From Pantoea sp. CCBC3-3-1 (GTDB lineage: Bacteria > Pseudomonadota > Gammaproteobacteria > Enterobacterales > Enterobacteriaceae), in NCBI RefSeq assembly GCF_007981265.1, contig NZ_CP034363.1, positions 4,278,001-4,342,000 on the forward strand: a DNA stretch of 64,000 nt. The letters are read 5' to 3'. The notes below the pieces were generated by a model, which was given only the letters and a program-made list of their open reading frames with translations, did not search any database and had not been told where the DNA came from. The position numbers and the translations under genes were made by a program. This document shows, piece after piece, positions 37,654 to 59,666 of this stretch; position 1 is the stretch's first letter, and every line of letters begins with the position of its first letter.

Positions 37654-38646
37654 ATGAAAATGCAACGCATCACGTTACACGATATCGCCACGCTGGCGGG
37701 CGTAACGAAAATGACCGTCAGCCGCTATTTACGCACGCCGGAAAAAGTAAAGCCCGACACCGCCGAGCGCATTGCCAGCGTCATCGCCGAAGTGGGCTAT
37801 CAGCCCGATCCCGATAATCACGCTATCGCCAGCAACGCCCTGCCCCGTATCGGCGTGTTAATCCCTTCTTTTCATAACCAGATTTTTTCCGAGCTGCTGG
37901 CCGGTGTGGAATCGGTCGCCGGCGCTCAGGGCTACCAGACGCTGGTGGTTAATTACGACTACGACAGCCAGCGCGAAGAAGAGCAGATCGCCACGGTGTT
38001 AGCGTTTAATGTTAAGGCGATTTTGTTAACTGAATCGGTTCATACGGTGCGGGCAGAAAAATACCTCAAGGCTTCCGGCATTCCGGTTGCAGAAGTGATG
38101 GGTCTGACGACCACTCAGGGTCGCGTTAACGTTGGCTTTAACAACCATCAGGCCGGTTTTGATATGGCCAGTATGCTGATCGGCAGCGGTAAAAAACGCA
38201 TTATCTACTTTGGATCGATGTCCGATATTCGTGATGAACAGCGCTACGCGGGTTATTGCCAGGCGATGGCGGGCGCGGGTTTGCAGGCAGGACGCATCTC
38301 ACCGAACAAAGTGTCTTCCGTGTCGACCGGCGCGGGCATGATGACGCTGGCACGCCAAATGTATCCCGATATGGACGGCATTCTCTGCACCAATGACGAC
38401 CTGGCCGTCGGCGTTTTACAGGAGTGTCTGGCGGCGGGTATCGCGGTGCCTCAAGAAATGGCGATTGCCGGTTTTCACGGGCTGGAAATCGGACAGGTTA
38501 CCACGCCAAAACTGGCCAGCGTGATCACGCCGCGCTTTGAGATGGGCAAAACCGCCACCGAAATTTTAATTAAAAAAATCAATAATATGCCGGCTATCGA
38601 GCGTGTAGATTTGCACTATCGTTTATCGATGGGTGCCACTATTTAA
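37654..38646 (+). CDS. idnR: LacI-family regulator, IdnR/GntR-type
   Basis: 330 aa. LacI helix-turn-helix at residues 5-30 (ITLHDIATLAGVTKMTVSRYL) and a periplasmic-binding-like ligand domain. It shares long stretches with E. coli IdnR/GntR as I recall them (IPSFHNQIFSELLAGVESV; CTNDDLAVG; IAGFHGLEIG; ASVITPRFE). It is divergent from idnO, so it is probably its regulator; the ligand would be 5-ketogluconate or idonate. Confidence 0.88.
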   Translation: MKMQRITLHDIATLAGVTKMTVSRYLRTPEKVKPDTAERIASVIAEVGYQPDPDNHAIASNALPRIGVLIPSFHNQIFSELLAGVESVAGAQGYQTLVVNYDYDSQREEEQIATVLAFNVKAILLTESVHTVRAEKYLKASGIPVAEVMGLTTTQGRVNVGFNNHQAGFDMASMLIGSGKKRIIYFGSMSDIRDEQRYAGYCQAMAGAGLQAGRISPNKVSSVSTGAGMMTLARQMYPDMDGILCTNDDLAVGVLQECLAAGIAVPQEMAIAGFHGLEIGQVTTPKLASVITPRFEMGKTATEILIKKINNMPAIERVDLHYRLSMGATI

Positions 38647-38736
38647 GCCTCTTCCCCCCTAAAAATCCCTGCCGATCGTGCCGGTTTTGTCCTGGCGATC
38701 ACGTAGTCGGTAACACGATTTCTTAACACGATTCAG

Positions 38737-38752
38737 TGTGATCTTCGTCACA
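38737..38752. promoter_or_regulatory. CRP site upstream of the hydroxyacid dehydrogenase gene
   Basis: TGTGA-TCTTCG-TCACA, a perfect consensus match, 67 nt upstream of the start at 38819. A run of short direct repeats (ACGTATC at about 38782 and 38792) follows, possibly an operator. Confidence 0.75.
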
Positions 38753-38818
38753 AAAAATCCTTCAGGAACGCCTTTAATAATACGTATCCGACGTATCGCA
38801 TTCCGAAGGGAGATATTT

Positions 38819-39757
38819 ATGACGACCCAAGCCATCCTGTTAATCGCTGCCGTACCTGACGCCCTGCTCGATCGCCTTGCTTCGGCCTGGACGGTACACC
38901 GTCTTTTTGAGCAGGATGACCCGCAGACGTTTCTGGCCGACAAAGGCGACACCATCAAGGCGGTGGTCACGCGTGGTGACGTCGGCGTGCGCAAAGAGGT
39001 GCTGGAACAGCTGCCCAACGCGGGCCTGGTTGCCGTGTTCGGTGTGGGTACCGATGCCACAGACCTGAACTATACCCGCTCGAAAAATATTGCCGTCACC
39101 ATCACTTCTGGCGTGCTGACCAACGATGTGGCCGATATGGCCATGGGACTGCTGCTGGCCGCCTCACGCCGCTTATGTCAGGGCGACAGCTTCGTCCGTC
39201 AGGGCAAATGGCTGAATACCGCCCCGACGCTGGGCAATCAGGTTAGCGGCAAACGCATCGGCATTTTAGGCATGGGCAATATTGGCCAGGCGATTGCCCG
39301 CCGCGCCGCTGGTTTTGATATGCAAATCAGCTATACCAGCCGCAGCCGTCATGACGCGCTGCCTTACGCCTGGCACGACGACGTGCAGTCTCTGGCACGC
39401 GATAGCGACTTCCTGGTGATTGCCGCCGCCGGTGGCGAATCCACCAAAGGTTTGGTTAACGCTGATGTTTTACATGCCCTGCCAAAACACGCCTGGCTGA
39501 TTAATATTGCGCGCGGCACGCTGGTTGATCAAAGCGCGTTAATTCAGGCCTTACGTAAAGGCGATATAGCCGGTGCCGCACTGGACGTTTATGAGCAGGA
39601 ACCGCAGGTGCCGGAAGAGTTAATAGCCATGAGCAATGTGGTTTTACAACCTCATGTTGGCAGCGCTACGCACGAAACCCGCCAAAAAATGAGTGATGTC
39701 GTTTTTGCCAACGTCGAAGCCTTTTTCAAAGCAGATGATCTCCCTAACGCAATTTAA
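38819..39757 (+). CDS. NAD(P)-dependent 2-hydroxyacid dehydrogenase (GhrB/HprA-like)
   Basis: 312 aa from ATG 38819, which follows GAAGGGAGA; the frame is open upstream but starts are poor. Rossmann motif GMGNIGQAIARR near residue 153, catalytic Arg (INIARGTLVDQ) near 232, Glu (DVYEQEP) near 261 and His (PHVGSATHETR) near 280. It reduces 2-ketoacids such as 2-ketogluconate, hydroxypyruvate or glyoxylate. A CRP site precedes it and an MFS permease follows 96 nt later. Confidence 0.9.
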   Translation: MTTQAILLIAAVPDALLDRLASAWTVHRLFEQDDPQTFLADKGDTIKAVVTRGDVGVRKEVLEQLPNAGLVAVFGVGTDATDLNYTRSKNIAVTITSGVLTNDVADMAMGLLLAASRRLCQGDSFVRQGKWLNTAPTLGNQVSGKRIGILGMGNIGQAIARRAAGFDMQISYTSRSRHDALPYAWHDDVQSLARDSDFLVIAAAGGESTKGLVNADVLHALPKHAWLINIARGTLVDQSALIQALRKGDIAGAALDVYEQEPQVPEELIAMSNVVLQPHVGSATHETRQKMSDVVFANVEAFFKADDLPNAI

Positions 39758-39852
39758 TTCCTTTTATCAGTTCAGGATGACGGGATAACTTCTTTTCATC
39801 CTGCCAGACAGGCGTGGGGCACGTTCACGCCTTACTCTAACGAGGGTCAGAG

Positions 39853-41187
39853 ATGAAGAATAAGATACCCGGAACACGCTGGCTGCGTGTAATAGCCCCG
39901 ATCCTGATTACCTGCATTATTTCATTTATGGACCGGGTCAATATCAGTTTTGCCCTGCCCGGCGGGATGGAAAAAGATTTAGCGATCACCAGCCAGATGG
40001 CGGGTGTCGCCAGCGGGATTTTCTTTATCGGCTATCTGTTTTTACAGGTGCCTGGCGGTCGGATTGCCGTTAACGGCAGCGGTAAGCGCTTTATCGCCTG
40101 GTCGCTGGCGGCCTGGATGGTGGTTTCCATCGCCACCGGCTTTGTCACCAACCACTGGCAGCTGTTGGCCCTGCGGTTTGTGTTGGGTGTTTCCGAAGGC
40201 GGAATGCTGCCGGTAGTGCTGACGATGGTCAGTAACTGGTTCCCCGAAAAAGAGCTGGGCCGCGCCAATGCTTTTGTAATGATGTTTGCGCCGCTTGGCG
40301 GCATGTTCACCGCGCCGATCTCCGGCACGATAATCAATATGTTTGACTGGCGCTGGCTGTTTATCATCGAAGGCGTGCTTTCTGCGTTCGTGCTGCTGGT
40401 GTGGTGGATAGCGATCAGCGATCGGCCTGAAGAAGCGCGCTGGTTACCGGCACGCGAGCGCGACTATCTGCTGACCGAGCTAAAACGCGATCGGGAAGAG
40501 CGCGCGAAAAAAACGCCGCCGGGCAAGGCAAGCCTGAAAGAGGTGTTTCGCAGTAAGGGATTGATGAAGCTGGTGCTGTTGAACTTCTTTTATCAGACCG
40601 GTGATTACGGCTATACGCTGTGGCTGCCCAGCATCCTGAAAAATCTGACCGGCGCGAATATGGCGGGCGTTGGTGTGCTGGCTATCCTGCCGTTTGTCGC
40701 CACCATTGCCGGTATCTATTTGATTTCCTGGCTGAGCGACCGCACCGGTAAACGTCGCTTTTGGGTAATGGTCTCGCTGTTCTGCTTTGCCGCCTCGCTG
40801 CTGGCTTCGGTCGGACTGAATCAGCATATTGTCGCCTCTTATATCGCGCTGGTGTTCAGCGGCTTCTTCCTCAAGGCGGCAACCAGTCCCTTCTGGACTA
40901 TCCCTGGCCGCATCGCTTCGGCGGAGCTGGCGGGCAGCGCACGTGGCGTGATTAACGGACTGGGCAACCTCGGCGGTTTCTGCGGTCCGTATCTGGTCGG
41001 GATCATGACGTATGTCTACGGTCAGGGCGCCGCCGTTTGCGCGCTGGCCGCTTCGCTGATCATCGCGGGCGTTCTTGCTGCGACGTTGCCAAAAGGCTGT
41101 GATTTATCAGACGATGAAAAATCCGCCGCGAAGAAACAGGCAGAGGAGGAGAAAATGCAGGGCGAGGTGTCGCATCAGGGGCATTAA
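39853..41187 (+). CDS. MFS transporter, anion:cation symporter family
   Basis: 444 aa, 12 predicted transmembrane helices, with the MFS-type GYLFLQVPGGR segment between helices 2 and 3 and the conserved FMDRVNISFALP near residue 25 typical of sugar-acid/tartrate-like ACS permeases. It probably imports a sugar acid or hydroxy acid for the dehydrogenase just upstream. Soluble C-terminal tail is charged (SDDEKSAAKKQAEEEKMQGE). Confidence 0.88.
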   Translation: MKNKIPGTRWLRVIAPILITCIISFMDRVNISFALPGGMEKDLAITSQMAGVASGIFFIGYLFLQVPGGRIAVNGSGKRFIAWSLAAWMVVSIATGFVTNHWQLLALRFVLGVSEGGMLPVVLTMVSNWFPEKELGRANAFVMMFAPLGGMFTAPISGTIINMFDWRWLFIIEGVLSAFVLLVWWIAISDRPEEARWLPARERDYLLTELKRDREERAKKTPPGKASLKEVFRSKGLMKLVLLNFFYQTGDYGYTLWLPSILKNLTGANMAGVGVLAILPFVATIAGIYLISWLSDRTGKRRFWVMVSLFCFAASLLASVGLNQHIVASYIALVFSGFFLKAATSPFWTIPGRIASAELAGSARGVINGLGNLGGFCGPYLVGIMTYVYGQGAAVCALAASLIIAGVLAATLPKGCDLSDDEKSAAKKQAEEEKMQGEVSHQGH

Positions 41188-41237: not shown

Positions 41238-42137
41238 TTATTTCCCGGTCATCGCCATATTGATGGTTTCCAGCGCCTGGCGCAGCGGTTTGACCTCGAT
41301 CTGACCTGGAGCCGATGCCTCGCCGATCATGCCAAAGGTGAGATCCGATCCCCACACCTGGCCGGTGATTCGCGTGACGGCTCCCAGCCCGCCCATGGAC
41401 ATGGTCAGCAGTGGTTTGCGTGAGTAGCGCTCGCGGATTTGCGCAGTGGCATCCTGCAATTTCAGTACGTCTCCTGCATTGTGCGGCATTACCGCGATTT
41501 TCAGGATATCTGCCCCCATTTCATCCTGTTTACGCAGCCGCGAAACTATTTCAGCGGTGTCGGGCGTGTTGTTAAAATCGTGGCTGGACATCACCACCTT
41601 GATACCCGCCTCATGTGCCGCAGCCACCACTTTTTGCACCACCGCGGGCTGGCGGAACATTTCAACATCCAGAATATCAATAAAATGCGATTTGATTAGC
41701 GCCAGGTAGAGATCGCCCCAGGCCTGGTCCGTTATCACTTTTGCTCCCCCCTCCGCCTTAGTGCGAAAAGTCAGGATCAGCGGCTTACCCTTCACTTCGG
41801 CCACAATTTTTTTGCCCAGCGCCGCAACTTGCGCGGGATCGTTGGCAAAATTCAGGTAATCAATTCGATATTCAATCAGGTCGGCATCCGGGTTTTCACC
41901 AATCATTTTTGCCTGTGCCAGCACCTGCTCCGCAGTGGCGCCGGTGGTGGGCACAATGATTTTAGGCGCCCCCTGGCCGATAAGGGTGTTATTGATCTTC
42001 AACGGGACGGCATGCCGCTGGGTAAAAGCCGCTGCCGCCTGGCTGGTGGACGCCGCATGGGCCTGAGATAAAGCCACAACGCCGCTTTGTGTACCCAGTA
42101 ATAATGAGACTGCTATAACCATTTTTCGTAAATTCAC
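41238..42137 (-). CDS. Exported type I 3-dehydroquinate dehydratase
   Basis: 299 aa from GTG 42137, placed by the GGAGTAG site just upstream. A signal peptide (MVIAVSLLLGTQSGVVALSQ, cut after AHA) leads the enzyme to the periplasm. The mature part is a type I DHQase: DLIEYRIDYL (shikimate-side), catalytic His in VMSSHDFNNTP and Schiff-base Lys in ILKIAVMPHNAGD, plus MSMGGLGAVTRI. The biosynthetic AroD is cytoplasmic; an exported one is a catabolic type like Acinetobacter QuiB, which turns 3-dehydroquinate into 3-dehydroshikimate. Confidence 0.93.
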   Translation of the reverse strand: MNLRKMVIAVSLLLGTQSGVVALSQAHAASTSQAAAAFTQRHAVPLKINNTLIGQGAPKIIVPTTGATAEQVLAQAKMIGENPDADLIEYRIDYLNFANDPAQVAALGKKIVAEVKGKPLILTFRTKAEGGAKVITDQAWGDLYLALIKSHFIDILDVEMFRQPAVVQKVVAAAHEAGIKVVMSSHDFNNTPDTAEIVSRLRKQDEMGADILKIAVMPHNAGDVLKLQDATAQIRERYSRKPLLTMSMGGLGAVTRITGQVWGSDLTFGMIGEASAPGQIEVKPLRQALETINMAMTGK

Positions 42138-42272
42138 GTTTACTACTCCATTAAGCACGGATCGTTATTATCTTCAGCGGATTAAAGACCGCCGAATTAC
42201 GGGATAGAAACAAAAGCCATTAACGCTGAGTTACCGAACATTATTTTTACAGATAAATAAGCACTGTCTCTA

Positions 42273-43811
42273 TTACTTTGCTGTTACGGGCTTGCTGAGG
42301 GGCGATGTAGCGCCATCTTCCGTCGTCGCCGTGCTGGTAACGTTAGCGACCACGATGTCATCCGTCAGTGGTAATATATATTTAAACGTGCCCTGCCCAT
42401 CTGCGTGAACCGGCACCATGTCATAGCCAAGAAAGTTTTCAGCTTCGTCTCTGTTTGCTTTACTGTTAGCGAAGAACTCAATGCGATACAGAGTATTGGC
42501 TTCGCCTTTGACACTGCCACTCACGATAAGATCGTTGCCCTGGTGAGCAGCCTGTGAAATAACCGGCGGCAGCTGGTTTTCATTGGGTGTTTTCTCACAA
42601 CCTGCACTGTTACCATCAAGCGCACAAATACGTTCAAGCGTGGATGCATTATTACTGATGCCTCCACCGCGGCTTCCTGGGAAATCGGCATGTTCCAGGC
42701 CTGGCACATTAAACACTATCGCACCGGCATAATCAGGCAGGCAGCTGCCGCCAGCAAAGCAGCGCTTAATATCCTTACCATTATCGATCATAATATTTTC
42801 CGAAATGCGATCGCGATTTGGTCCGGTAATACGGTTAATACCAAAGCGGCCATCTTTGCCCGCCACGCCCTGTGGCCGAACCGCGACGGCAACGCGATTA
42901 TTGACCATACGGTTTCCCGCTACGATATTATCTGTGCCGCTAAGCGTAACGGCAGAGGATAAATTCTTAAACATATTGGCAGCGATATAGTTGCGGTTTC
43001 CCCAGTTTATCTGCACGCCGTCTGAATAGTTTTGAAACGTATTGTGGATCACCTGATTATCATTGCCCCACAGCATTTCCAGCCCCTGAGACGGTTCCTG
43101 ATTACTGGCATCGGTCGTGATTAAGTTATCGGCAATCAGATTGAACGAAGCGCCGCGTGTTGCCTCCATGCCGTCGCCGTTATTAAGAAAGGTATTGCGC
43201 AGAATTTTGTTGCGCTGGGTGGTAGTGGCCGTTGAGTTTCCTTTGCCATCGTCGCCGGTCATCATCAGTCCGGCACCACCGTGGTTTGCCACAAAGCGGT
43301 TGTCTTCAATTACGTTGTTGCTGGCGCGGTTTAGCAAAATACCGATACAAAAATTACGCACTTCCAGCCCCTGAATGGTGACGTCATGCGTATCGCGCAG
43401 AACCAACCCCGGCAGCGTGTTGGTGCGGACATTTGCGCCATACTGCCCTTTTTCTGCACCCGGACAGCTGCGGGGATCGACAGGTTTGATATAGCCAGAG
43501 CCATCAATGGCAATATATGTCCCTTCCCGTAACCAGTTCATATTAATAATATCCACTGGCCCTTTAATTTCTGGTAAAGGCTTGCCTGGCTTAATCACTA
43601 ACGGGGCATTATCTTTAAAATCTATCTCTATCTTATATCGACCTGGATTTTGATTATTTTTCTCCAACGCCCATCGCAACGTGCCATTCTGACCATTATC
43701 AGCAGCAGCGTTAACTTTCAGTATGTCTTTTTCTGGCAAGACGTTCTCTTCAGCCGTAACGGCAAAAGATAAAAGCAGAGACAGCATAACGGCAATTTTA
43801 TTTTTAAACAT
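42273..43811 (-). CDS. Exported right-handed parallel beta-helix protein, possible QuiC-type dehydroshikimate dehydratase
   Basis: 512 aa with a signal peptide (MFKNKIAVMLSLLLSFAVTAE). The middle, about residues 130-340, is a set of beta-helix coils rich in N/D-x-I (NNVIEDNRFV, RNKILRNTFLNNGDG, DNQVIHNTFQNYSDG, NRNYIAANMF, TDNIVAGNRMVNN). A C-terminal small all-beta domain follows (about 425-512). The fold is shared by pectate lyases and by some exported Acinetobacter QuiC-like dehydroshikimate dehydratases, as I recall. Its neighbours make the second reading plausible: it would give protocatechuate. An alginate/pectin lyase role is not excluded. Confidence 0.75.
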   Translation of the reverse strand: MFKNKIAVMLSLLLSFAVTAEENVLPEKDILKVNAAADNGQNGTLRWALEKNNQNPGRYKIEIDFKDNAPLVIKPGKPLPEIKGPVDIINMNWLREGTYIAIDGSGYIKPVDPRSCPGAEKGQYGANVRTNTLPGLVLRDTHDVTIQGLEVRNFCIGILLNRASNNVIEDNRFVANHGGAGLMMTGDDGKGNSTATTTQRNKILRNTFLNNGDGMEATRGASFNLIADNLITTDASNQEPSQGLEMLWGNDNQVIHNTFQNYSDGVQINWGNRNYIAANMFKNLSSAVTLSGTDNIVAGNRMVNNRVAVAVRPQGVAGKDGRFGINRITGPNRDRISENIMIDNGKDIKRCFAGGSCLPDYAGAIVFNVPGLEHADFPGSRGGGISNNASTLERICALDGNSAGCEKTPNENQLPPVISQAAHQGNDLIVSGSVKGEANTLYRIEFFANSKANRDEAENFLGYDMVPVHADGQGTFKYILPLTDDIVVANVTSTATTEDGATSPLSKPVTAK

Positions 43812-44060
43812 GTTTCACCTGACATTGAGAGCCATAATAATAAGCGCGATTGCGCTCATCCGTATTATCGTAAGCGATCGTTTATAAACAAAAGAGGTAC
43901 TCATTATTTCTTAAAAAAAGATACGCCTGTCTACAATAAAACTTATGATCAAAATCAAATTAGCCAGCAAACATACAACAATAAAAATAGTTATATACCA
44001 GACACGCCGAGGCCCACCCATAATATTTATGAATGAGCCGACTTGTATTTTATTTTTAAC
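43812..44060. other. Intergenic region between beta-helix and DUF554 genes
   Basis: 249 nt, very AT-rich and without a coding signal I trust; probably holds the promoter of the beta-helix/DHQase genes. A short open frame (43945-44238, plus strand) overlaps the DUF554 gene and is not credible. Confidence 0.4.
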
Positions 44061-44780
44061 TCAAAAACAGTGCACCCAGGCTGCGGATATTGGCATTGCC
44101 AGAACCAGCGCGGGTATCATATTTGCTACAGGAAACATTTTAATACCGCAGATCCGAAACCCGGTAGCAAACATCAATACACCACCGACGGCAGAAAAAT
44201 CAGCCTGCATTGCAGAAGTGGTCAAGGGCATTATGTAGACTGCACCATGCGCCAGCGCTAACTGAATAATCAGCTGAGGCAGGGCAATAATGGCTACTGC
44301 AAAACCCAATGACGTAGCAAATATAGCCGCGGTAAAAATATCCAGGAAGGATTTGGCAATCAGCACGCTGGTGTCGCCGGTCATGCCTTCATGCATTGAA
44401 CCAAAAATACCCGTCCCGCTGGCGCAAAACAGTACGATGATAGAGACGTATTGATGTAAAAATTGCTCCTGCGCACTTTCATCACTGCTCCCCGGTTTCA
44501 CTAACAGCTCCACCAGCCCTTTCGCTTTGCCGCCGACTTTACCGATGCCTTTTTCCAGATAAATCAGTTCTCCTAATAACGAACCTAAAATCACTGAAAG
44601 CACCATTACCGGCATATGAACGACTTTGACCACCAGTACGATGCCCATACACATTGAGGCGGCACCAAAAATCGACGGCATGCTGAGCCGAATACGTTCC
44701 GGCAGGCGGGTACTGAGTACCGCGCCGATGATGCCGCCCAGGAAAACGGCAGAGCCGTTAATATAGGGTCCTACTATCAC
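44061..44780 (-). CDS. DUF554 family membrane protein (YdfK-like)
   Basis: 239 aa from GTG 44780 (Shine-Dalgarno AGGAG 9 nt upstream). About seven hydrophobic segments; begins MIVGPYINGSAVFLGGIIGAV and contains the two-fold repeated GS(L)LGE...IFGSMHEG. DUF554 members are of unknown function and appear as small transporters. In this cluster it sits 70 nt from the decarboxylase gene, so it may export catechol/pyrogallol or import an aromatic acid. That is inference. Confidence 0.85.
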   Translation of the reverse strand: MIVGPYINGSAVFLGGIIGAVLSTRLPERIRLSMPSIFGAASMCMGIVLVVKVVHMPVMVLSVILGSLLGELIYLEKGIGKVGGKAKGLVELLVKPGSSDESAQEQFLHQYVSIIVLFCASGTGIFGSMHEGMTGDTSVLIAKSFLDIFTAAIFATSLGFAVAIIALPQLIIQLALAHGAVYIMPLTTSAMQADFSAVGGVLMFATGFRICGIKMFPVANMIPALVLAMPISAAWVHCF

Positions 44781-44850
44781 TGATGGGTACTCCTGATGGA
44801 TTTCATTGACTCTCCCCAGCGCGGTAAATCAGCCCTGACCCAAGCGCGTC

Positions 44851-46335
44851 TTATTTTTTAAAGCCGGGAATAAAACGGTTTACGTCCACTTCAAGGAATG
44901 CGCTGCGCTTGAAGTTATGCTTCAGATCGTAAGGCACGGTACAGTCGAAAATGGTTTTGCAGGCGATACCGTGCGCACGGATGGACGAACTGAATGCCGG
45001 ATCGGAAGAGGGATCAAGCGGATGACAGCGCACGCCTGGAATAAACACGGTGCTGGCATCGCCCTGATAACGCGTGGTCATCGCCCACATCACGTCGTTC
45101 ATATCGAAGAGATCGACATCCTCATCCACCAGCATCACGTGCTTCAGCTCTGAGAAAGCTGAGAATGCCAGCAACGCGGCCTGACGCTGTCTTCCTTCAT
45201 CTGCCGGAGAACGTTTCTTCACTTGCAGCACGGCGAGGTATTTCCCGGTGCCGGGTGATGGGCAGTGAACATTCTGCACAAAGCCCGGCAGCGCGCGCTC
45301 GACCATCTGCAAAATACTGGCTTCCGTTGGGATGCCCGCCATGTTGGTATGTTCATCGCTTGGGCCGATGCAGGTTTGCAGGATCGGATGTTTGCGGTGG
45401 GTAATTGCCTTCACCTTGATAACCGGCACGGCGGCCTGGGCATCGCCGGTATAGCCCGGAAACTCCGGCATCGCTTTGCCGGTGTTGGTGTTCTGATCTT
45501 CCTGAACGCGCACGTTTGGCAACAGTTCGCCTTCAATCACCACTTCGGCATTGGCGATGGCACGCGCATGAACAGAGACGCAGTCCGTCAACTCAACGGG
45601 CTGATTACGCAGGCTACCGGCAATCGACAGCTCATCGAAGCCCAGCGGCGTAGTTGGCGGCTCAAAGCAGGCACCGATTTCAATGGCCGGATCCACGCCA
45701 ATGCTGATGGAGATCGGCAGCGGCTCGCCCTTCTCTTCCGCTTTCTGACGGAACACGTCCAGATGACGACCCGGCACAAAGTACATGGAGATTTCATCTT
45801 TGCTCTGCACGCAAAGGCGATGAATAGTCACATCATGCTCGCCGGTTTCTGGATCGGCGGCGTAACACATGCCCAGCGTAAAATAGGGACCGGCATCTTC
45901 CGGCGTATTGGTTGGGGCAGGCAGGATTTTCAGAATATCGAAGTCGGGATCGCTGGCCAGATGCACCACTTCCTGGCAGACGGCTTTTTCTTGCGGAATA
46001 ACAATCGGTGCGATTGGATTGCTGGCCGCGTCTTTCAACATAAAGGCCAGTTTTTCAGGGGTGCTGCCAAACAGATGAGCAACGCGTTGACGGGAAGAGA
46101 GCAGCCCGATGAGCACGCGCATGTCGTTATAGCCTTTGATTTTGTTAAAAATCATGGCAGGGCCGATACGGGTCGGGCGCATCACCGTACCGTTTGCGCC
46201 AACATAACGGTAAACGCCAGACAGCTCAGCAATCGGATCTACCGGTTCATCGGTGTAAATGAGCTCGTCATCGTACTGACTCAGCACCTCAATTGCGCTG
46301 CGTAAGTCTGTTACTTTCTTCTGATTCTCAGACAT
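44851..46335 (-). CDS. UbiD-family protocatechuate/gallate decarboxylase (AroY/LpdC-like)
   Basis: 494 aa from ATG 46335 (MSENQKKVTDLRSAIEVLSQ), chosen over an upstream in-frame start because of the AGAGG site and the family N-terminus. UbiD enzymes decarboxylate aromatic acids using prenylated FMN, which is supplied by UbiX (not in the window). The sequence follows AroY/LpdC closely as I recall it: VTIHRLCVQ, EGELLPNVRVQED, HTNMAGIPTEASI, LAVLQVKKRSPADEGRQRQA, HVMLVDEDVDLFDMNDVMWAM. AroY gives catechol from protocatechuate, LpdC pyrogallol from gallate. UbiD-type gallate decarboxylation has been reported in Pantoea, as I recall. Confidence 0.93.
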   Translation of the reverse strand: MSENQKKVTDLRSAIEVLSQYDDELIYTDEPVDPIAELSGVYRYVGANGTVMRPTRIGPAMIFNKIKGYNDMRVLIGLLSSRQRVAHLFGSTPEKLAFMLKDAASNPIAPIVIPQEKAVCQEVVHLASDPDFDILKILPAPTNTPEDAGPYFTLGMCYAADPETGEHDVTIHRLCVQSKDEISMYFVPGRHLDVFRQKAEEKGEPLPISISIGVDPAIEIGACFEPPTTPLGFDELSIAGSLRNQPVELTDCVSVHARAIANAEVVIEGELLPNVRVQEDQNTNTGKAMPEFPGYTGDAQAAVPVIKVKAITHRKHPILQTCIGPSDEHTNMAGIPTEASILQMVERALPGFVQNVHCPSPGTGKYLAVLQVKKRSPADEGRQRQAALLAFSAFSELKHVMLVDEDVDLFDMNDVMWAMTTRYQGDASTVFIPGVRCHPLDPSSDPAFSSSIRAHGIACKTIFDCTVPYDLKHNFKRSAFLEVDVNRFIPGFKK

Positions 46336-46526
46336 TTTAAAACCTCTTAAGCTGTGATTCTGACTGAAGCTAACTAAAGGGTGCGGTTTAATCAGACCCT
46401 TCGACTGCGGGGAAAAGGTCATGATTCGCTGTGCTATCAGTTTTAGAATTCCAGCCAACTTTGTCCAATAAGCATTACCCTGTTTTAAATAAGCGTTTAT
46501 TATCACCAAAAAAAGGGAGACTCAGC
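46336..46526. promoter_or_regulatory. Divergent control region of ubiD-like gene and LysR gene
   Basis: 191 nt between divergent genes and therefore the expected LysR operator site. The sequence is not a clean palindrome; a candidate T-N11-A pair is present but not convincing. Confidence 0.4.
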
Positions 46527-47426
46527 GTGGAATACCGGCATTTACAAGCTTTCCTGGTCCTTTCGGAAGAGCTGCATTTTGGCAATGCGGCTTGCCGCCT
46601 GAATATTGCCCAGCCCGCGCTGAGCCAGCATATTAAGGCGCTGGAGCAGGAGCTCGGCCTGCCGCTGTTTGTCCGTGATAAGCGCAAAGTCGCCCTGACC
46701 TGGGAAGGCGAGCAGCTGATTGGCCGGGCTAAAATTGCGATTAGCCAGTTTTCGCGGTTTCGCGAACATGCCAATATTTTGAAGCAGGGATTGCAGGGCC
46801 ACCTGACGCTGGGTTATGTCGGCAGTTCCATTCTCGACCCCAGTCTGGCAATGTTAATCAATGGTTATCGACAGGCCTGGCCCACCACCGAGATAACAAT
46901 TGAAGAACACAATGTCGACAATCAGCTCACACGGTTAATGGATGACCGGCTCGATATCGCGCTGGTTCGCTCGCCGGTGCCGCGTTACGACGAACTGGAT
47001 TATCTGAATATTGTCACCCGCCCCCTGACCGCCGTCTTACCGGCTAATCATCCGCTGTGCGGGCAGCAACGTATCTGCCTCAGCCAGCTCTCTGATGAAA
47101 CCTTTTTGATTCAGGAAGATCCACCGGGTATCGGGCTGGGCTGGTCGGTACTTTCTGCCTGTCAGCGTGCGGGATTCACGCCGGGAAAGATTCAGGTGAC
47201 GCGCGACGTTTCGGTCGCAATGGGACTGGTGGCGATGGGCATGGGCGTCACCGTGGTGCCGGAAACGCAGCGTTCGGTTCTGCTGCCCGACGTGGGCTAT
47301 TGTCAGCTGATTGATGAACAAGCCACCACCACGCTGATGCTTGCCTGGCAGCGGCGTCGTTATCACCGCACGTTAAAGAACTTTGTTAATTATGCGCGGG
47401 AACTGACTGAGAAAGGGGGATGCTGA
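46527..47426 (+). CDS. LysR-family regulator, CatM/BenM-like
   Basis: 299 aa from GTG 46527, with AAAGGGAGA 6-14 nt upstream. Helix-turn-helix at residues 1-60 (MEYRHLQAFLVLSEELHFGN ... SQHIKALEQELGLPLFVRD); effector domain similar to catechol/benzoate regulators (LTLGYVGSSILDP; GMGVTVVPETQ). It is divergent from the UbiD decarboxylase, so it probably senses protocatechuate, gallate or a related aromatic and controls that operon. Confidence 0.9.
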   Translation: MEYRHLQAFLVLSEELHFGNAACRLNIAQPALSQHIKALEQELGLPLFVRDKRKVALTWEGEQLIGRAKIAISQFSRFREHANILKQGLQGHLTLGYVGSSILDPSLAMLINGYRQAWPTTEITIEEHNVDNQLTRLMDDRLDIALVRSPVPRYDELDYLNIVTRPLTAVLPANHPLCGQQRICLSQLSDETFLIQEDPPGIGLGWSVLSACQRAGFTPGKIQVTRDVSVAMGLVAMGMGVTVVPETQRSVLLPDVGYCQLIDEQATTTLMLAWQRRRYHRTLKNFVNYARELTEKGGC

Positions 47427-47783
47427 GCGAGGCCAGGCAATCTTATTCTCCTGCGTGATCCCCCCAAACGGAATGATATCCAGCTCGGTGTCCTGCCAGA
47501 TCAATCGATGAATGTTTTTTGCCTTTTCACTGGCTCCATGCTGTAGCAGACTTTGTTTCAAGGAATAAAATTCCTGCCATTCCTCAACAAATATAGCTAC
47601 ATCAATATCGCGCGTACGGCGGCCCATGCTTTTTCCGTATACATGATGAAGTAATATTTCGCGGGCTGTAGCCCCGGCGATAAAGAAAGGAAGATTCTGC
47701 TCAGAACAGACATTATGGATATCGGTTAACAGCGACTCAGTAACTGAAAAGAGCGGTATCGCTAAGCTTAAGGTATTTGTCAT
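47373..47783 (-). pseudogene. AbiEii/AbiGii-type nucleotidyltransferase toxin, C-terminally truncated
   Basis: 136 aa; the family is normally about 270-300 aa. The nucleotidyltransferase core is present (IAGATAREILLHHVYG, then RRTRDIDVAIFVEEW), but after ITQENKIAWP the frame runs into SASPFLSQFPRIINKVL, which is the antisense of the neighbouring LysR gene. The toxin therefore lost its second half through a deletion that joined it to the LysR gene. The start overlaps the antitoxin gene by 47 nt. Confidence 0.8.
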
Positions 47784-48684
47784 TGATAATCCTTGCTGCT
47801 TCCTTGTTGCGGTCGTCGTCGCTGGCCAGCAGATCCGCTACGCACAGCATCACCTTTGCTTTTTCATTTAGCTGAAAATCCCGTCCCCAGAAGCTGGATA
47901 TCAGCTGTAGCTGGCCGTCATGCATTGGCCTGTACCCAAGTTCCTTACAGCGCACTGACAAAGCATAGGGCGTAAATAACTGTCCCTTTTCCGGTACCAG
48001 ATAACCGTCACTTAATTCAGCGGCGGCCACCTCCCCACCCCAATACTCTCCTGCACCCAGTGGGATATCCTGCCACAAATCGCAACCCGCTACGCGAACA
48101 CCTGATAATTTTGGAAGCAAGGCCGAAGCGTAGTCTCGTAGCCACAATACCAGCAGCTCTTCGGCATTCATTAAGCGTCGGCCAGACTGCGTTTTACGGT
48201 AGTATTTTTGTGCGGCAAGATACTCAAAAGCTTTGCTCACCATCCCCAGCGAAACACCGGCTTTCACAGCCAGGCTTCTGTAGGTCTCATTTAAGGATTC
48301 AGGTTGGGATAGCAGAACAAAAAGCAGCTTCATGACGCCTTCAGCCAGTCGGGACTTAGGCGCGACTATTTTCTCTGCCGTTTTACCTTCAATAAGTACA
48401 TACAGCCCGGGAACATTTATCCCTGCATTGCCTGCGATATCGATAAAGTTCAGGTGATTACTGTGACAATACTCAGCAAGAGTGGGGGTCAGCTGATTAC
48501 AAACAAGCAGCAGAGGAGCAGCCGTTGTAACGTGCGCCGTATTGTTAACAATGCTTTTAAGTGACTCTTTACGGTGAATTTTTTTAACGTTTAATGAAAA
48601 GATAAATGGTAGCCCATTTGGGCTGACTAACGTCGCCAGCCCATCCTGATTAACTGAAGCCCGATCGGCATTCAATAGAATCAA
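47737..48684 (-). CDS. AbiEi-family type IV antitoxin
   Basis: 315 aa. Winged helix region about residue 135-190 (NETYRSLAVKAGVSLGMVSKAFEYL ... KTQSGRRLMNAEELLVLWL) between an N-terminal domain and a C-terminal DNA- or RNA-binding domain, as in the AbiEi antitoxins that repress the abiE operon. The start is TTG with a poor site, only 10 nt after the DUF1176 stop; the true N-terminus may be upstream or lost. Because its toxin partner is truncated, it may now be an orphan, perhaps protecting against incoming AbiE-like elements. Confidence 0.75.
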   Translation of the reverse strand: MILLNADRASVNQDGLATLVSPNGLPFIFSLNVKKIHRKESLKSIVNNTAHVTTAAPLLLVCNQLTPTLAEYCHSNHLNFIDIAGNAGINVPGLYVLIEGKTAEKIVAPKSRLAEGVMKLLFVLLSQPESLNETYRSLAVKAGVSLGMVSKAFEYLAAQKYYRKTQSGRRLMNAEELLVLWLRDYASALLPKLSGVRVAGCDLWQDIPLGAGEYWGGEVAAAELSDGYLVPEKGQLFTPYALSVRCKELGYRPMHDGQLQLISSFWGRDFQLNEKAKVMLCVADLLASDDDRNKEAARIINDKYLKLSDTALFSY

Positions 48685-48693
48685 AAAATCCGG

Positions 48694-49755
48694 TCAGGGC
48701 GCTGGCTTCACCTCGGTCACAAAATCCGGTAAATCCCAACTTCCACCCGCACGGATATAGCGACACATCCCGCTGTTCGCATGTCGGGTTTTCTGGAATG
48801 TCTGGCCGTCCCATACCCATCCGGCCATACTGACGCAGTCGGCAATGCCGCGACCTTTCTGGAACCAGGAAATCTCGCCGTCGCGGTAATCATCGCCGGA
48901 ATCCGTGACGATCGCAGGTTTACCGGTTAAGGCTTTATCGATAACCCAGTAGCCGTACCCTTCGTTGTAGGCAGCGCGCCAGCAAAGCGTGGAGATCAGA
49001 GCATGGGTGTTATCCAGCGGGATATAGGTCAGCTTGTCGCTCTCTTCGTCGCTAATACTGCCCTTTTCTTCCTCATCCGGGTTCAGGCGATCGCATTGCA
49101 GATCGTCGGTCAGCGTAGCCATCAGCCGGGGCTTTAGCGCGGTAATCTCCTGTTGGGTCAGCAGGCGGGAAGGTTCTTTACTGACTTTCGCCGCCTGAAT
49201 AACCGGCGCCGGTACGGCTTTGGTTACGCCGCTTTCCGGCTTATTTCCCTTTTTGGTCCATGCGCCTGGCGTACCAATACGGCCCTGCACATCATCCACT
49301 TTCAGCATGACGGCGTAAGCGCCATCGTTTGAGAGCATAAAGGGCGTGTGGCCGCCTTTGAACTCGACTTTGCCGCTGCCCTTAACGGCATTGATCAGCC
49401 CAAGGGTTTGCGGCTGCGATAACCGCCAGGTGTCGTTTTCAGCCGCGGTGAGATCGCCCGCTGAAACACCATTAATCCATACGGTCAGCTTAGTAACAGG
49501 TGCTTCATCTTCCGAGTCGGTCTCCGACAAAATGACCTCACCGGTGGGAACCGTGTTCGCACCAGCCTGTCGGGTAAGCAGCACCGAACCGCCCGCGCCT
49601 TCTTCATTGGCATAACCAGCGGTACGACAGGTCAGGGTGTTGTCGCAGGTCACTTCCCAGTCTTTATGCTCGAATGAGATGCCGCTTTGTTCGGCGAGGA
49701 CGGGTGCAGTAAGGGTACTGAATAAGAACAAGGCTGTTGTATAAGAGGCTTTCAC
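48694..49755 (-). CDS. DUF1176 family exported protein (copy 1)
   Basis: 353 aa from GTG 49755, placed by AGGAG 7 nt upstream. Signal peptide (TALFLFSTLTAPVLA). It shares motifs with the second copy at 51372-52421: HKDWEVTCDNTLTCRT, VLLTRQAG-NTVPTGEV, DLTAAENDTWRLSQPQTLGL, YGYWVIDKAL. Unknown function; conserved Cys pairs suggest a periplasmic disulfide protein. Confidence 0.85.
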   Translation of the reverse strand: MKASYTTALFLFSTLTAPVLAEQSGISFEHKDWEVTCDNTLTCRTAGYANEEGAGGSVLLTRQAGANTVPTGEVILSETDSEDEAPVTKLTVWINGVSAGDLTAAENDTWRLSQPQTLGLINAVKGSGKVEFKGGHTPFMLSNDGAYAVMLKVDDVQGRIGTPGAWTKKGNKPESGVTKAVPAPVIQAAKVSKEPSRLLTQQEITALKPRLMATLTDDLQCDRLNPDEEEKGSISDEESDKLTYIPLDNTHALISTLCWRAAYNEGYGYWVIDKALTGKPAIVTDSGDDYRDGEISWFQKGRGIADCVSMAGWVWDGQTFQKTRHANSGMCRYIRAGGSWDLPDFVTEVKPAP

Positions 49756-49866
49756 GCGATCTCTCCTGTGAGATAAGCCGAAGAGTTTGAACAATTAGGG
49801 ATTCAATAGGAAATCTTTTATTCAGGGTGCTACCTTTCACCTAATCAGTTGATTATATTACAGGCG

Positions 49867-50538
49867 CTATGGCCCATAACCGCCCAACGGTTCAATAAGT
49901 ACAATCCCCAACTGATCGGCTTCGTATTCGATAGCGTTTATTACGGCGGCAGATTCCAAAAGTGGCTGTGACTCAATTAACACGCTGAAATCTTCTGGTT
50001 TTACCCGATCGCCAAATAGCATTAAGGCTGTACTTCCATGCTGTTTTGAAGACCACTGCAAGCCATGCACTTCAGAGAAATTCAAATAAATGGCCAGAGA
50101 ATATTCACGGGTGAAAACATACTGATCGGCGGATGAATCAAGTAATTCAGAACGTGTAATGCCCATTCTGCGAAGCGTTTTAGGATTAAGATCAACCAGA
50201 GTAAGATTGGTGCAGGGTTTGATGACCGAATGAACCGCACCTTCCAGTTTTGCCAAATCGTAGGGAACTCCTGCTGAATCTGGCGGTAAATCATGAAAGA
50301 GCGTTTCCATTATGGCAACGCCAATGTTCTCACCACCATACAAAGTCGATACACCATTGCTTAAAGGACTAAACCGGGCGTTGCCTTTTCCTGGATTAAA
50401 CTGGAGAGCGTTAAAGTTTGCCGAATGTATCCGGCAAATTGGTTTGCCCGCTATCCATGTTGTGAAATTGACTTCTAATACATGTTTGGGTTTCCGCAAC
50501 TTGCGAACGGCAACATCCCTGTTATCCGACTCAGCCAT
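49867..50538 (-). CDS. RES-domain toxin (NAD+ phosphorylase family)
   Basis: 223 aa from ATG 50538, which overlaps the antitoxin stop by 8 nt (ATGGCTGA) with GGGGGA upstream. The RES domain is clear: ICRIHSANFNALQFNPGKGNARFSPLSN with conserved R, (N/S), then TLYGGENIGVAIMETLFHD and the E/S-rich end. RES toxins such as MbcT and Res deplete NAD+. The preceding Xre-like protein is the expected antitoxin. Confidence 0.88.
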   Translation of the reverse strand: MAESDNRDVAVRKLRKPKHVLEVNFTTWIAGKPICRIHSANFNALQFNPGKGNARFSPLSNGVSTLYGGENIGVAIMETLFHDLPPDSAGVPYDLAKLEGAVHSVIKPCTNLTLVDLNPKTLRRMGITRSELLDSSADQYVFTREYSLAIYLNFSEVHGLQWSSKQHGSTALMLFGDRVKPEDFSVLIESQPLLESAAVINAIEYEADQLGIVLIEPLGGYGP

Positions 50539-51241
50539 GGGTTCCCCCGTCCAGTTCGGCATGGGCCGCCTCGAGTACCTGCTGTGGCTGAGTTATCAAC
50601 ACATCTTTCGGTTTTCTGCCTGCCAGCCAACTATTTTCTGAACCGAACCAGATAGCTAATCCCCAGGGAGTTTTCCTCCCTTCAAACAATCTAATAACTT
50701 GTTTAACAACAGGAATTGGTCTGAATCCTTCATCCAGTGCATATGCCGGATAGTTGTCTTTGCCATTCAGCGGTATAGCAAAAAGAGCGCCAGCAGCCTT
50801 CCAGCGGTTCGGGCCTGCACTCGGATTCGTGTTGCGGAAGTTAGCTTTCTCAGACAACTCTCGAGCCGTCAGCCATTCTGAATCCGCAAGAATACGGGCA
50901 GTTAATTGCTGCAAACGCTGTGCATTTCGTTCCGCACGCGCCGATTTTTCCGGCTTTGCTTCAGTAAGAGCCTCGTCAGGCACTTTGCGGCGAGCGACAG
51001 CGGTTTCAGGCGCTGCGGTCTCAGGCATGCTCAACGATGCCAGAACAGCATTCATGGCCGCCCGCATCGCCACTTTGATGGTTTCATTAAAAACCGGGCT
51101 ATGTTCTTTAGCCTGCCCTAAATCAATGACCAGATAATCTTTATCTGCATTCGTTTCCAGCTTAGTGAGCTGAGCGCCGTTTAACGTTTGAACGTTAAAT
51201 GAATATTCATTACGCCGTACAGTATTGGCTTTCGCTGACAT
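50531..51241 (-). CDS. Putative Xre/MbcA-ParS-like antitoxin of the RES pair
   Basis: 236 aa from ATG 51241 (GGAG 8 nt upstream). The last 60 residues (RLFEGRKTPWGLAIWFGSEN, then WLAGRKPKDVL) resemble the ParS/MbcA/Xre toxin-binding domain (DUF2384 type). The N-terminal 130 residues are not recognised and include a positively charged segment (RKVPDEALTEAKPEKSARAE). It is longer than ordinary RES antitoxins (about 150 aa). The upstream AT-rich region (TATATTGGTTATATACATTA) could hold its operator. Confidence 0.7.
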   Translation of the reverse strand: MSAKANTVRRNEYSFNVQTLNGAQLTKLETNADKDYLVIDLGQAKEHSPVFNETIKVAMRAAMNAVLASLSMPETAAPETAVARRKVPDEALTEAKPEKSARAERNAQRLQQLTARILADSEWLTARELSEKANFRNTNPSAGPNRWKAAGALFAIPLNGKDNYPAYALDEGFRPIPVVKQVIRLFEGRKTPWGLAIWFGSENSWLAGRKPKDVLITQPQQVLEAAHAELDGGTHG

Positions 51242-51371
51242 CATTCGCTCCATCACGGAACAGGATATATTGGTTATATACATTATATTCTTGATGGAAA
51301 TTTTGTCACTGTGCTTTTGTCAAAAACGATAATGACGCCTGGTGAAGCCAGCAGATTAGTTATTTTTTCAG

Positions 51372-52421
51372 TCATTTAGCCGTTTTCACTTCCGTTACCA
51401 GCAGAGGCATCTCCCAGCCGCCATCCTCACTCCTTGACCGCCACAGCACCGAGCGGCTTTTCGGGAAAGCTTTACCCTCCCATACCCACTGTTCTTCCGT
51501 CGCTGAGTTGCCCATGCTGCTGACCATAAAGTAGCTTGAAATGACGCCATCCTGATACTTATAGCCAGCGTTAGTGACCGCTACGGGATCCCCTTTGAGC
51601 TGTTTATCAATTATCCAGTAGCCATGCCCTTCGTTATAAGCACCGCTCCAGCACAGCGTGGAAATTAAGGCGTGATGGTCATCAAGCGGAGTCAGCGTAA
51701 ATTCGTCTTTATCGATTTCTCCATTGATATTTTCCTGGCCGGGATACGTCATACGCTCGCAATCCATATCCTCGTTCAGCGTGGCGAGCAGGCGTGGCCT
51801 GAGCGCAGCGACTTCTGATTTGCTCAGGATGCGAGGCTGAGCCTGGCTGACTTTTGCTGCCTGAATCACGGGTTGGAAGATGGCCTTAGCGACGCTGCTT
51901 TCCGGTTTATCACCCGTTTTCGTCCAGGCTCCCGGTGTGCCGATACGGCCTTGTACATCATCCACTTTCAGCATGGTGGCATAAGCGCCATCGTTTGAGA
52001 GCGTAAATGAGGATTCGCCGCCTTTAAATTCGACGTTGCCGTTCCCTTTTACTGCACTAATAAGTGCCAGTGTTTGCGGCTGAGATAACCGCCAGACACC
52101 GTTTTCAGCTGCGGTGAGATCGCCTGCTGACTTGCCGTTAATCCATATCGTTAATTTATTTACGGTGGAATCGTCCCGCAGGTCGTTTTTTTCCAGCATC
52201 ACTTCACCGGTGGGAACAGTGTCCCTGCCAGCCTGTCGGGTAAGCAGAACCGAGCTGTCCATTTCCCGATCCCTTTCGAAACCCAGAGTACGGCAGGTCA
52301 GGGTGTTGTCGCAGGCGACTTCCCAGTTTTTATGATAGAAGTAGGTACCGCTTTCTCTGGCTATTGCCGGTGCGCTTAACGCAGCCAGTATCAGGAAAGC
52401 TGTTTTGATCGGTATATTCAC
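51372..52421 (-). CDS. DUF1176 family exported protein (copy 2)
   Basis: 349 aa from GTG 52421 (AGGAG 8 nt upstream). Signal peptide (KTAFLILAALSAPAIA). A paralog of the protein at 48694-49755, matching along its whole length (VLLTRQAGRDTVPTGEVMLE; SAGDLTAAENGVWRLSQPQT; TEVKTAK end). The two copies flank the RES toxin-antitoxin pair, so the cassette may have arisen by duplication with the TA genes inserted between. Confidence 0.85.
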   Translation of the reverse strand: MNIPIKTAFLILAALSAPAIARESGTYFYHKNWEVACDNTLTCRTLGFERDREMDSSVLLTRQAGRDTVPTGEVMLEKNDLRDDSTVNKLTIWINGKSAGDLTAAENGVWRLSQPQTLALISAVKGNGNVEFKGGESSFTLSNDGAYATMLKVDDVQGRIGTPGAWTKTGDKPESSVAKAIFQPVIQAAKVSQAQPRILSKSEVAALRPRLLATLNEDMDCERMTYPGQENINGEIDKDEFTLTPLDDHHALISTLCWSGAYNEGHGYWIIDKQLKGDPVAVTNAGYKYQDGVISSYFMVSSMGNSATEEQWVWEGKAFPKSRSVLWRSRSEDGGWEMPLLVTEVKTAK

Positions 52422-52497
52422 TTCGCGGCTCCTGCCAGTTAAAAATGTCATTTTTATATTTCAGCTGCGGGATTCGCTGCTTTGACTGTTTTTGTAA

Positions 52498-54300: not shown

Positions 54301-54786
54301 TTATTCACCCTCAAAGATATCACCATTTTTCTTTTGATAGTATTTATGCTCTGTCGTATAACTGACAATACCCGTTGTTGACTTGTTAATTATCAACAGG
54401 ATGTTTTTATCCAAACACCTCTCATTTTCTTTTTCGCTATCAAAACAATACATTTCATTATAAAAAAAATTAAGAAATGAACTCTCTGGCTCTCTAAATT
54501 TCTTGTAACCATTACCATAATCCCAAAACGTTACGGTATAAGTCCCATAACTTTTATCTTCTTTAGGGAAACCATACGATTCAAACAGCGTATTTTTATT
54601 ATCAAGCCACCAGTCAATCTTCCCTTTATCCGTCAACGGGAAATTTTTCACAATAACGTTACTGGTATCATTCTGAGTGAACACATCGATTATCTCAGGC
54701 TGACGGATGGCCAGCCGCAATCCCATAATAGCCATTATCATAGCAACGATAAAAAACAGAAAAATAGCAATCCATTTCCTAATCAT
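54301..54786 (-). CDS. DUF943 family protein (copy 1)
   Basis: 161 aa from ATG 54786, overlapping the DUF3289 stop by 8 nt (ATGATTAG). One N-terminal transmembrane helix (IRKWIAIFLFFIVAMIMAIM) and an extracytoplasmic domain with VIVKNFPLTDKGKIDWWLDN and FWDYGNGYKKF motifs shared with the two later DUF943 genes. Position directly after a DUF3289 gene in both cassettes suggests they function as a pair. Role unknown; an immunity or accessory role is possible. Confidence 0.85.
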   Translation of the reverse strand: MIRKWIAIFLFFIVAMIMAIMGLRLAIRQPEIIDVFTQNDTSNVIVKNFPLTDKGKIDWWLDNKNTLFESYGFPKEDKSYGTYTVTFWDYGNGYKKFREPESSFLNFFYNEMYCFDSEKENERCLDKNILLIINKSTTGIVSYTTEHKYYQKKNGDIFEGE

Positions 54787-55621: not shown

Positions 55622-55773
55622 AGTATCGCTTCCTTGCGTATAAAGATTCATTCAAATTGCACATATAACGTTCAATCATACGCTGCTAAAACAGCCTGTA
55701 AATACCCTTATTCTTCTGAAGGTAATTTAAGATTTTTGCCCGATTTAGTCATCGCTTGAGTCTTCATTCAGCC

Positions 55774-59230: not shown

Positions 59231-59666
59231 CACTTTCCCCAGGGGTTTTATATTCCTTACCATTAATTGAAAAAAACGGCTTTTTCTTATTAATCCTCTG
59301 GATAGTCATAACTTTTTCTTTTTCAATGCAGTTCTTTTTGGTTTCCATGTCAGTAAAACAGAGCCTGTCATATTTCCCCTCCTCTTTATAGCCATCACCA
59401 AAATCCCAAAAGATGATAGTGTAACTCCCATAGGAGGCGGGCTTAGGAATACCATATTGGGTCTTTAGCAAACTTTTATTTTTTAGCCACCAGTTAATTT
59501 TACCGTTGTCCGTAATTGGAAAATTTCTAACCAGAACAGAGCTGTAATTGCCATCCTGATGAACGGCAATGATTTCGACCGGGCGTAGCGATAACCAAAG
59601 GAGTGCTGCCAACAGGACACCGCCTGCTGTTAACGATGTGAGCAGGATTTTTTTATTTATTATCAT
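59223..59666 (-). CDS. DUF943 family protein (copy 2a)
   Basis: 147 aa. Transmembrane N-terminus (KKILLTSLTAGGVLLAALLW), then EIIAVHQDGNYSSVLVRNFP, GKINWWLKN and IIFWDFGDGYKEE. It overlaps the DUF3289 gene by 14 nt and is followed by another DUF943 gene, so this cassette has two copies where the first has one. Confidence 0.85.
   Translation of the reverse strand: MIINKKILLTSLTAGGVLLAALLWLSLRPVEIIAVHQDGNYSSVLVRNFPITDNGKINWWLKNKSLLKTQYGIPKPASYGSYTIIFWDFGDGYKEEGKYDRLCFTDMETKKNCIEKEKVMTIQRINKKKPFFSINGKEYKTPGESDD

Follow-up and report, generated by a model that had tools for sequence, protein, structure and literature searches.

In Acinetobacter, the periplasmic enzymes QuiA, QuiB and QuiC of the quiBCXA cluster turn quinate into protocatechuate, as described in PMC4213383, and the nadBCD genes of Novosphingobium aromaticivorans are presented in PMC10807440 as a native protocatechuate decarboxylase acting in natural aromatic catabolism. 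A stretch of 64,000 nucleotides from Pantoea sp. CCBC3-3-1 (assembly GCF_007981265.1, contig NZ_CP034363.1, positions 4,278,001 to 4,342,000; referred to as the window, to which all coordinates without a contig prefix relate) carries at 41238-47426 a locus in which homologs of quiB and quiC stand beside a gene for an AroY-type decarboxylase of the UbiD family. Judging from sequence, we consider it probable that this cluster encodes a pathway from quinate or shikimate to catechol that is divided by the inner membrane, in which decarboxylation would replace protocatechuate cleavage and which in this genome would continue into the beta-ketoadipate pathway. All five genes that an initial annotation had read in the locus (dehydroquinase, beta-helix protein, DUF554 protein, UbiD and divergent LysR) are present where it had placed them, and the features are as follows.

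41238..42137, minus strand: quiB-like gene for a putatively exported type I 3-dehydroquinate dehydratase, 299 amino acids (PF01487, TIGR01093)
42273..43811, minus strand: quiC-like gene for a putatively exported beta-helix 3-dehydroshikimate dehydratase, 512 amino acids (PF05048, PF13229, PDB 8wm1)
44061..44780, minus strand: DUF554 (YqgA-type) membrane protein, candidate transporter, 239 amino acids (PF04474, E 1.8e-60)
44781..44850, minus strand: scar of a deleted ubiX between ubiD and the DUF554 gene, a 70-bp gap with a 3' ubiX remnant
44851..46335, minus strand: AroY-type UbiD decarboxylase, predicted to convert protocatechuate to catechol, 494 amino acids (PDB 5o3n/5ny5/5o3m)
46336..46526, no strand: divergent promoter region between lysR and ubiD, 191 bp, with the conserved string TTATTGGAC
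46527..47426, plus strand: LysR-family regulator, 299 amino acids (PF00126, PF03466)

As start codons we took the ATG at 46335 for ubiD, over the first-listed TTG at 46509, and the GTG at 42137 for the dehydroquinase gene, while the start of lysR was shifted inward from 46431 to 46527, where its homologs begin.

In the proposed pathway, a QuiA dependent on pyrroloquinoline quinone (PQQ) and encoded elsewhere would, on the periplasmic side, yield 3-dehydroquinate by oxidizing quinate or 3-dehydroshikimate by oxidizing shikimate; exported QuiB would convert dehydroquinate to dehydroshikimate, and the exported beta-helix protein QuiC would convert dehydroshikimate to protocatechuate. Protocatechuate would then pass into the cytoplasm, probably via the DUF554 protein or a carrier of the major facilitator superfamily (MFS) of this genome, and be decarboxylated to catechol by UbiD with prenylated flavin mononucleotide (prenyl-FMN) from a UbiX encoded elsewhere. 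In Pantoea sp. CCBC3-3-1, CatA would cleave the catechol, and CatBC, PcaD and PcaFIJ would lead to beta-ketoadipate products. The divergent LysR protein would regulate ubiD.

We ran a QuiC profile against a GTDB-based collection of genomes and kept the best 80 of 176 relatives. In 16 of these 80 loci, quiC is preceded on its own strand by the gene for a UbiD 75-92% identical to that of the window, and ubiX and DUF554 lie between the two, so that the order ubiD-ubiX-DUF554-quiC holds in all 16 relatives with UbiD beside quiC. This joint occurrence of UbiD, DUF554 and QuiC on one strand argues that the locus is more than a chance assembly. The loci are named as Erwinia, Pantoea, Candidatus Pantoea formicae, Rahnella, Rouxiella, an Enterobacterales bin, Sodalis, Duganella, Stenotrophomonas and a Lysobacteraceae bin, and the cluster thus spans Enterobacterales, Burkholderiales and Xanthomonadales; quiB lies within the flank examined in 11 of the 16. 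The locus is nevertheless rare and patchy, since a sample of 392 genomes from the family-level group to which the window belongs (Pantoea sp. CCBC3-3-1 included) has quiC in only 5, and in 3 of 154 genera, and in a plasmid collection searched at megablast sensitivity none of the 21 records with a match covers 80% of the region. Mangrovibacter sp. MFB070 probably carries another such cluster on one contig; its proteins P0017, P0143 and P0255, which share a longest contig of 240741 bp, are named by a source as 3-dehydroshikimate dehydratase, 3,4-dihydroxybenzoate decarboxylase and membrane protein. The locus L046, labeled Pantoea sp. Ap-967, encodes a QuiC about 52% identical to that of the window and is without UbiD, as in Pseudomonas loci; its genus label may be wrong.

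Nearly the whole mature length of the beta-helix protein (residues 33-509 of 512) aligns with PDB entry 8wm1 (E 3e-133), a 3-dehydroshikimate dehydratase by its depositors' molecule name, which amounts to full-length homology to a beta-helix enzyme of this activity, and the protein is 47-50% identical to those encoded beside quiB in 16 Acinetobacter loci. By these similarities it appears to dehydrate dehydroshikimate to protocatechuate, in line with the QuiC-like identity first proposed for it. The next PDB match is NosD at an E-value of 0.12, and assignments as pectate lyase, alginate epimerase or NosD were rejected; the initial annotation had named an alignment with pectate lyases or alginate epimerases only as the case against a QuiC-like role, and this is not what was found. 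Automatic naming is evidently mixed: the sources call several homologs 3-dehydroshikimate dehydratase and a few mannuronan 5-epimerase, while others are labeled as NosD-domain or beta-helix proteins. The dehydroquinase matches PF01487 (E 7.3e-65) and TIGR01093 (231.7 bits, cut-off 139.3) and is 41% identical to Escherichia coli AroD, whose His143 and Lys170, which we take to be the catalytic residues, align with identical residues. With a DHquinase_I domain and this pair of residues it belongs to the type I dehydroquinases, and its reading as QuiB-like holds. Its N-terminus is hydrophobic and signal-peptide-like, with an AHA-AS site by eye, and that of the beta-helix protein is likewise hydrophobic, with a cleavage-like AVTA-EE stretch by eye and hydropathy; the division between periplasm and cytoplasm that had been put forward finds its support in these two N-termini. 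A protein of 778 amino acids (P0048) is, by precomputed Pfam domains, a natural fusion of a QuiC beta-helix with a type I dehydroquinase.

The UbiD protein matches the AroY structures 5o3n, 5ny5 and 5o3m with E-values of 1e-206 to 3e-204, and all four AroY active-site residues given in PMC5656893 (Arg188, His327, Lys363 and His436, the last counting as position 437 in chain 5ny5) are identical in the alignment. This bears out the AroY-like identity suggested at the outset, and the enzyme appears on this basis to act on protocatechuate, giving catechol. The VdcC model scores 464.2 bits against a cut-off of 650, which leaves the protein outside the VdcBCD type, and among open reading frames of at least 90 amino acids between ubiD and quiC in the window none was recognized by eye as a D subunit, for which no dedicated search was made. 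A close UbiD homolog, P0129, is named gallate decarboxylase by a source. While ubiX lies between ubiD and DUF554 in all 16 related loci, the window keeps 70 bp there, including 20 bp right before the DUF554 gene with 95% identity to the ubiX 3' end of Erwinia endophytica (L012). The initial annotation had pointed to the rest of the genome for ubiX, and a UbiX-like gene is indeed located there (G000:C1:3425850-3426365), and its product shares 56% identity with UbiX of the L012 operon; with the dedicated copy lost, this gene probably substitutes as the source of UbiX-type prenyl-FMN.

To assess the fate of protocatechuate, we compared the 17 cluster genomes (Pantoea sp. CCBC3-3-1 and the 16 relatives) with 18 control genomes, chosen by hand to cover a broad range of the 64 loci in which quiC has no such UbiD in its vicinity. 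A PcaH over the TIGR02422 cut-off is encoded by all 18 controls and by 0 of the 17 genomes with the cluster, so that by this model the cluster genomes lack the pcaGH part of the Acinetobacter-type quinate/protocatechuate pathway; the weak PcaH matches that they do show, four in all, lie in their CatA genes. Within Xanthomonadales the counts are 0 of 4 for cluster and 6 of 6 for control genomes. Conversely, an AroY-class UbiD (at least 60% identical) is encoded in 17/17 cluster and 0/18 control genomes, the latter having either a distant UbiD (32-34% identical, six genomes) or no UbiD match (twelve). As UbiD beside quiC was the criterion for assigning genomes to the two groups, the UbiD contrast is partly expected and only the PcaH contrast is independent. 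The flanks alone show a pcaH more than 45% identical to a Pseudomonas one near quiC in 23 of the 64 UbiD-less loci and in none of the 16 with UbiD. Decarboxylation thus seems, as had been suggested, to take the place of protocatechuate ring cleavage in these genomes.

The DUF554 gene follows ubiD-ubiX in all 16 related loci, and its product is 64-85% identical to the window copy in the 14 that were aligned. Eleven second copies of AroY-class UbiD are known in the cluster genomes, and in seven of nine such loci examined (L165, L166, L167, L168, L169, L170 and L174) ubiX and DUF554 again stand behind UbiD; in L171 UbiD occurs without them, and in L172 the contig ends after ubiX. None of the stretches examined around these nine copies contains quiC. 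DUF554 is therefore part of the decarboxylase module and not attached to quiC, a sign that it generally partners AroY-type decarboxylases, and its place behind ubiD-ubiX even without quiC makes it a candidate transporter. The same second copies could be taken to mean that the main substrate of the decarboxylase is gallate, converted to pyrogallol, or another plant hydroxybenzoate, and that two plant-phenolic modules loosely adjoin. The name given to P0129 would fit, and AroY of Enterobacter cloacae also converts gallate (about 83% versus >99% in 1 h, according to PMC5656893). We regard this as improbable, given that quiC adjoins the module across three bacterial orders, that the absence of PcaH over cut-off from the cluster genomes fits protocatechuate as the acid removed, and that the product of QuiC is protocatechuate and not gallate (PMC4213383). 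Of the two products considered in the initial annotation, catechol via protocatechuate is accordingly the one retained, and pyrogallol via gallate is less likely because QuiC makes protocatechuate, even though an AroY enzyme also takes gallate.

The genome encodes four full-length PQQ membrane dehydrogenases. One of them (C1:3647105-3649480) is 63-66% identical to the QuiA proteins encoded beside quiBC in Acinetobacter and, in a tree of 37 sequences that does not contain every copy found, joins them in a clade (support 1.0) separate from Gcd; a second one falls with Gcd of E. coli. A QuiA ortholog is thus encoded outside the locus, where the initial annotation had proposed to look for a PQQ quinate dehydrogenase. 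A role limited to dehydroshikimate or protocatechuate from external supply, with quinate not a substrate at all, would agree with the position of quiA away from the locus, with the 5 of 16 loci without quiB nearby and with TIGR03074 passing its cut-off in 14 and not all of the 17 cluster genomes. An exported dehydroquinase is, however, sensible only given periplasmic dehydroquinate, and the QuiA ortholog of this very genome falls in the tree with the QuiA that Acinetobacter encodes next to quiBC, so we give little credence to such a restricted role. Pfam family PF00848 (Ring_hydroxyl_A) has no match in the genome, which makes benzoate and anthranilate dioxygenases unlikely as sources of catechol.

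On the catechol side, the initial annotation had listed no ring-cleavage genes and supposed that the product may be excreted, which is not borne out for this genome. Seven consecutive genes on one strand, catA-catC-catB-pcaD-pcaF-pcaJ-pcaI (about C1:2055484-2062249), each score over an NCBIfam cut-off, catB, pcaI and pcaJ via subfamily models, and make up the catechol branch of the beta-ketoadipate pathway; a regulator of the PcaR/PcaU/PobR type adjoins them. Catechol is therefore probably degraded here, and Erwinia sp. ErVv1 (L019, genome G399) has the same catACB-pcaDFJI order. Four of the 17 cluster genomes, Pantoea sp. CCBC3-3-1 among them, have a CatA over the TIGR02439 cut-off, as against 11 of the 18 controls, and neither intradiol model has a match (E 0.001) in the other 13, most of which are drafts whose completeness is not reported, so that catechol may be the end product there. 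For catechol 2,3-dioxygenase, 0 of the 17 score over the cut-off, although weaker matches of full length leave some room for extradiol cleavage in G393, G394 and G395.

These counts invite the view that catechol is generally the intended, excreted end product, in a metabolism resembling oxidative fermentation where periplasmic quinate oxidation feeds the respiratory chain, perhaps serving detoxification or iron reduction, with catA incidental in Pantoea sp. CCBC3-3-1. The conserved gene order, which covers decarboxylation and not cleavage, is in keeping with it. The complete cat-pca order in two genomes and the extradiol-like proteins below cut-off in three others argue against it, as does the extent of the search, which comprised intradiol and catechol 2,3-dioxygenase models in mostly draft genomes, and we hold it to be unlikely. 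A related and equally doubtful proposal concerns the DUF554 protein, which might act as an exchanger of protocatechuate and catechol (or of aromatic acids and phenols) in a portable, energy-conserving ubiD-ubiX-DUF554 decarboxylation module: as quinate oxidation in the periplasm supplies the respiratory chain, protocatechuate would enter as an anion, decarboxylation would use up a proton inside, and catechol would leave, as the excreted end product of a fermentation-like quinate metabolism in those 13 genomes where no intradiol dioxygenase was detected. An AlphaFold2 model of DUF554 from 15 sequences reached a mean predicted local distance difference test score of 55, too poor for a comparison of folds, and among the literature matches listed for DUF554/YqgA none deals with transport by title or abstract start. 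No aromatic-acid MFS carrier in the genome exceeds the TIGR00895 cut-off of 418.55 bits, though two come near it (413.5 and 404.1).

Several observations weigh against the quinate-to-catechol pathway as we propose it. The cat operon lies about 2.26 Mb away and has its own regulator, tying it to the locus by logic only, and the scarcity of CatA, which is rarer than in controls, together with the 13 genomes without an intradiol match puts catechol cleavage outside the conserved system. Phylogeny confounds most of the PcaH contrast, as 12 of the 17 cluster genomes but no control belong to Enterobacterales. The loci that lack quiB in the flank examined are L017, L019, L021, L022 and L024, and the UbiD of L021 reads in two pieces. 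In the window, gaps of 249 bp before quiC and 135 bp before quiB leave space for separate promoters. E. coli YqgA is 65% identical to the window DUF554 protein, so this family is not specific to the cluster.

Within the 191-bp region between lysR and ubiD, the string TTATTGGAC is identical in all 10 enterobacterial loci aligned. A divergent LysR 62-82% identical to that of the window is encoded in each of the nine loci L012-L020, and none at that level in the other seven cluster loci. The regulator had been called CatM-like, which is not specifically so: the CatM model NF040710 gives 85 bits at a cut-off of 580, the best model is AlsR with 213.1 bits at a cut-off of 430, and the protein stays under the cut-off of every family among the best 25 of 49 matched.

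The genes at 37654-41187, convergent with quiB, encode an IdnR/GntR-like regulator, a D-2-hydroxyacid dehydrogenase and a carrier of the MFS that scores best against a model of the galactonate group. They were rejected as members of the system: in tblastn searches of the 16 cluster loci the carrier matches at 25-27% only (L018 and L025), and the regulator and dehydrogenase have no match. They perhaps serve sugar-acid use and are apparently unrelated to the cluster. On the other side, an AbiEi_2-type antitoxin gene adjoins a short open reading frame that has no Pfam match and looks nucleotidyltransferase-like by eye (47373-48684), and at 49867-51283 a RES-domain gene overlaps a frame of 250 amino acids without Pfam match, with the appearance of a toxin-antitoxin pair. 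Two DUF1176 proteins (48694-49794 and 51372-52451) and two DUF3289 proteins (54779-55651 and 59653-60504) are each encoded within a few kilobases of each other.

One parallel in chemistry is engineered. The route from dehydroshikimate via protocatechuate and catechol to muconate (aroZ, aroY, catA), which reportedly originated with Draths and Frost, uses the same three reactions as far as its available description goes; it is cytoplasmic and assembled from several organisms, whereas the system in the window is natural and has an apparently periplasmic beta-helix dehydratase. Lactobacilli convert quinate to catechol with the same overall chemistry, and the gallate decarboxylase of Pantoea agglomerans T71 is of the same enzyme class. 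With the Acinetobacter quiBCXA/pca system the genome shares homologous QuiB, QuiC and QuiA. There, pcaH lies near quiBC in all 16 loci kept and quiA in 15 of them, and PcaGH cleaves the ring of protocatechuate; here PcaH was not found, an AroY-type decarboxylase and DUF554 stand at the locus, and quiA lies elsewhere. The AroY/KpdBCD and EcdBCD decarboxylases of Klebsiella and Enterobacter resemble the present enzyme, to judge from the available text of PMC5656893, PMC10807440 and PMC13406360, in the full-length UbiD, the four active-site residues and, in the relatives of the window, the UbiX partner, but here the decarboxylase is coupled to quiC/quiB, ubiX is deleted in the window and DUF554 follows instead. 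For Novosphingobium nadBCD, the available text of PMC10807440 does not mention a coupling to quiB/quiC. Among the matches listed from open-access papers, none describes the gene set, its spread or its avoidance of pcaGH by title or abstract start, which is weak evidence as subscription journals are mostly outside that collection. Each enzyme type is known, and what is apparently new is the arrangement: within a single conserved locus, a quinate route of the periplasm is tied to a decarboxylase for protocatechuate in the cytoplasm, which in the genomes compared apparently stands in for protocatechuate dioxygenase. This arrangement directs attention to organisms that would make catechol naturally from plant-derived quinate and shikimate, offers native parts for an industrial catechol or muconate route and a testable role for DUF554 membrane proteins, and makes the locus a natural counterpart of the hand-built route to catechol and muconic acid.

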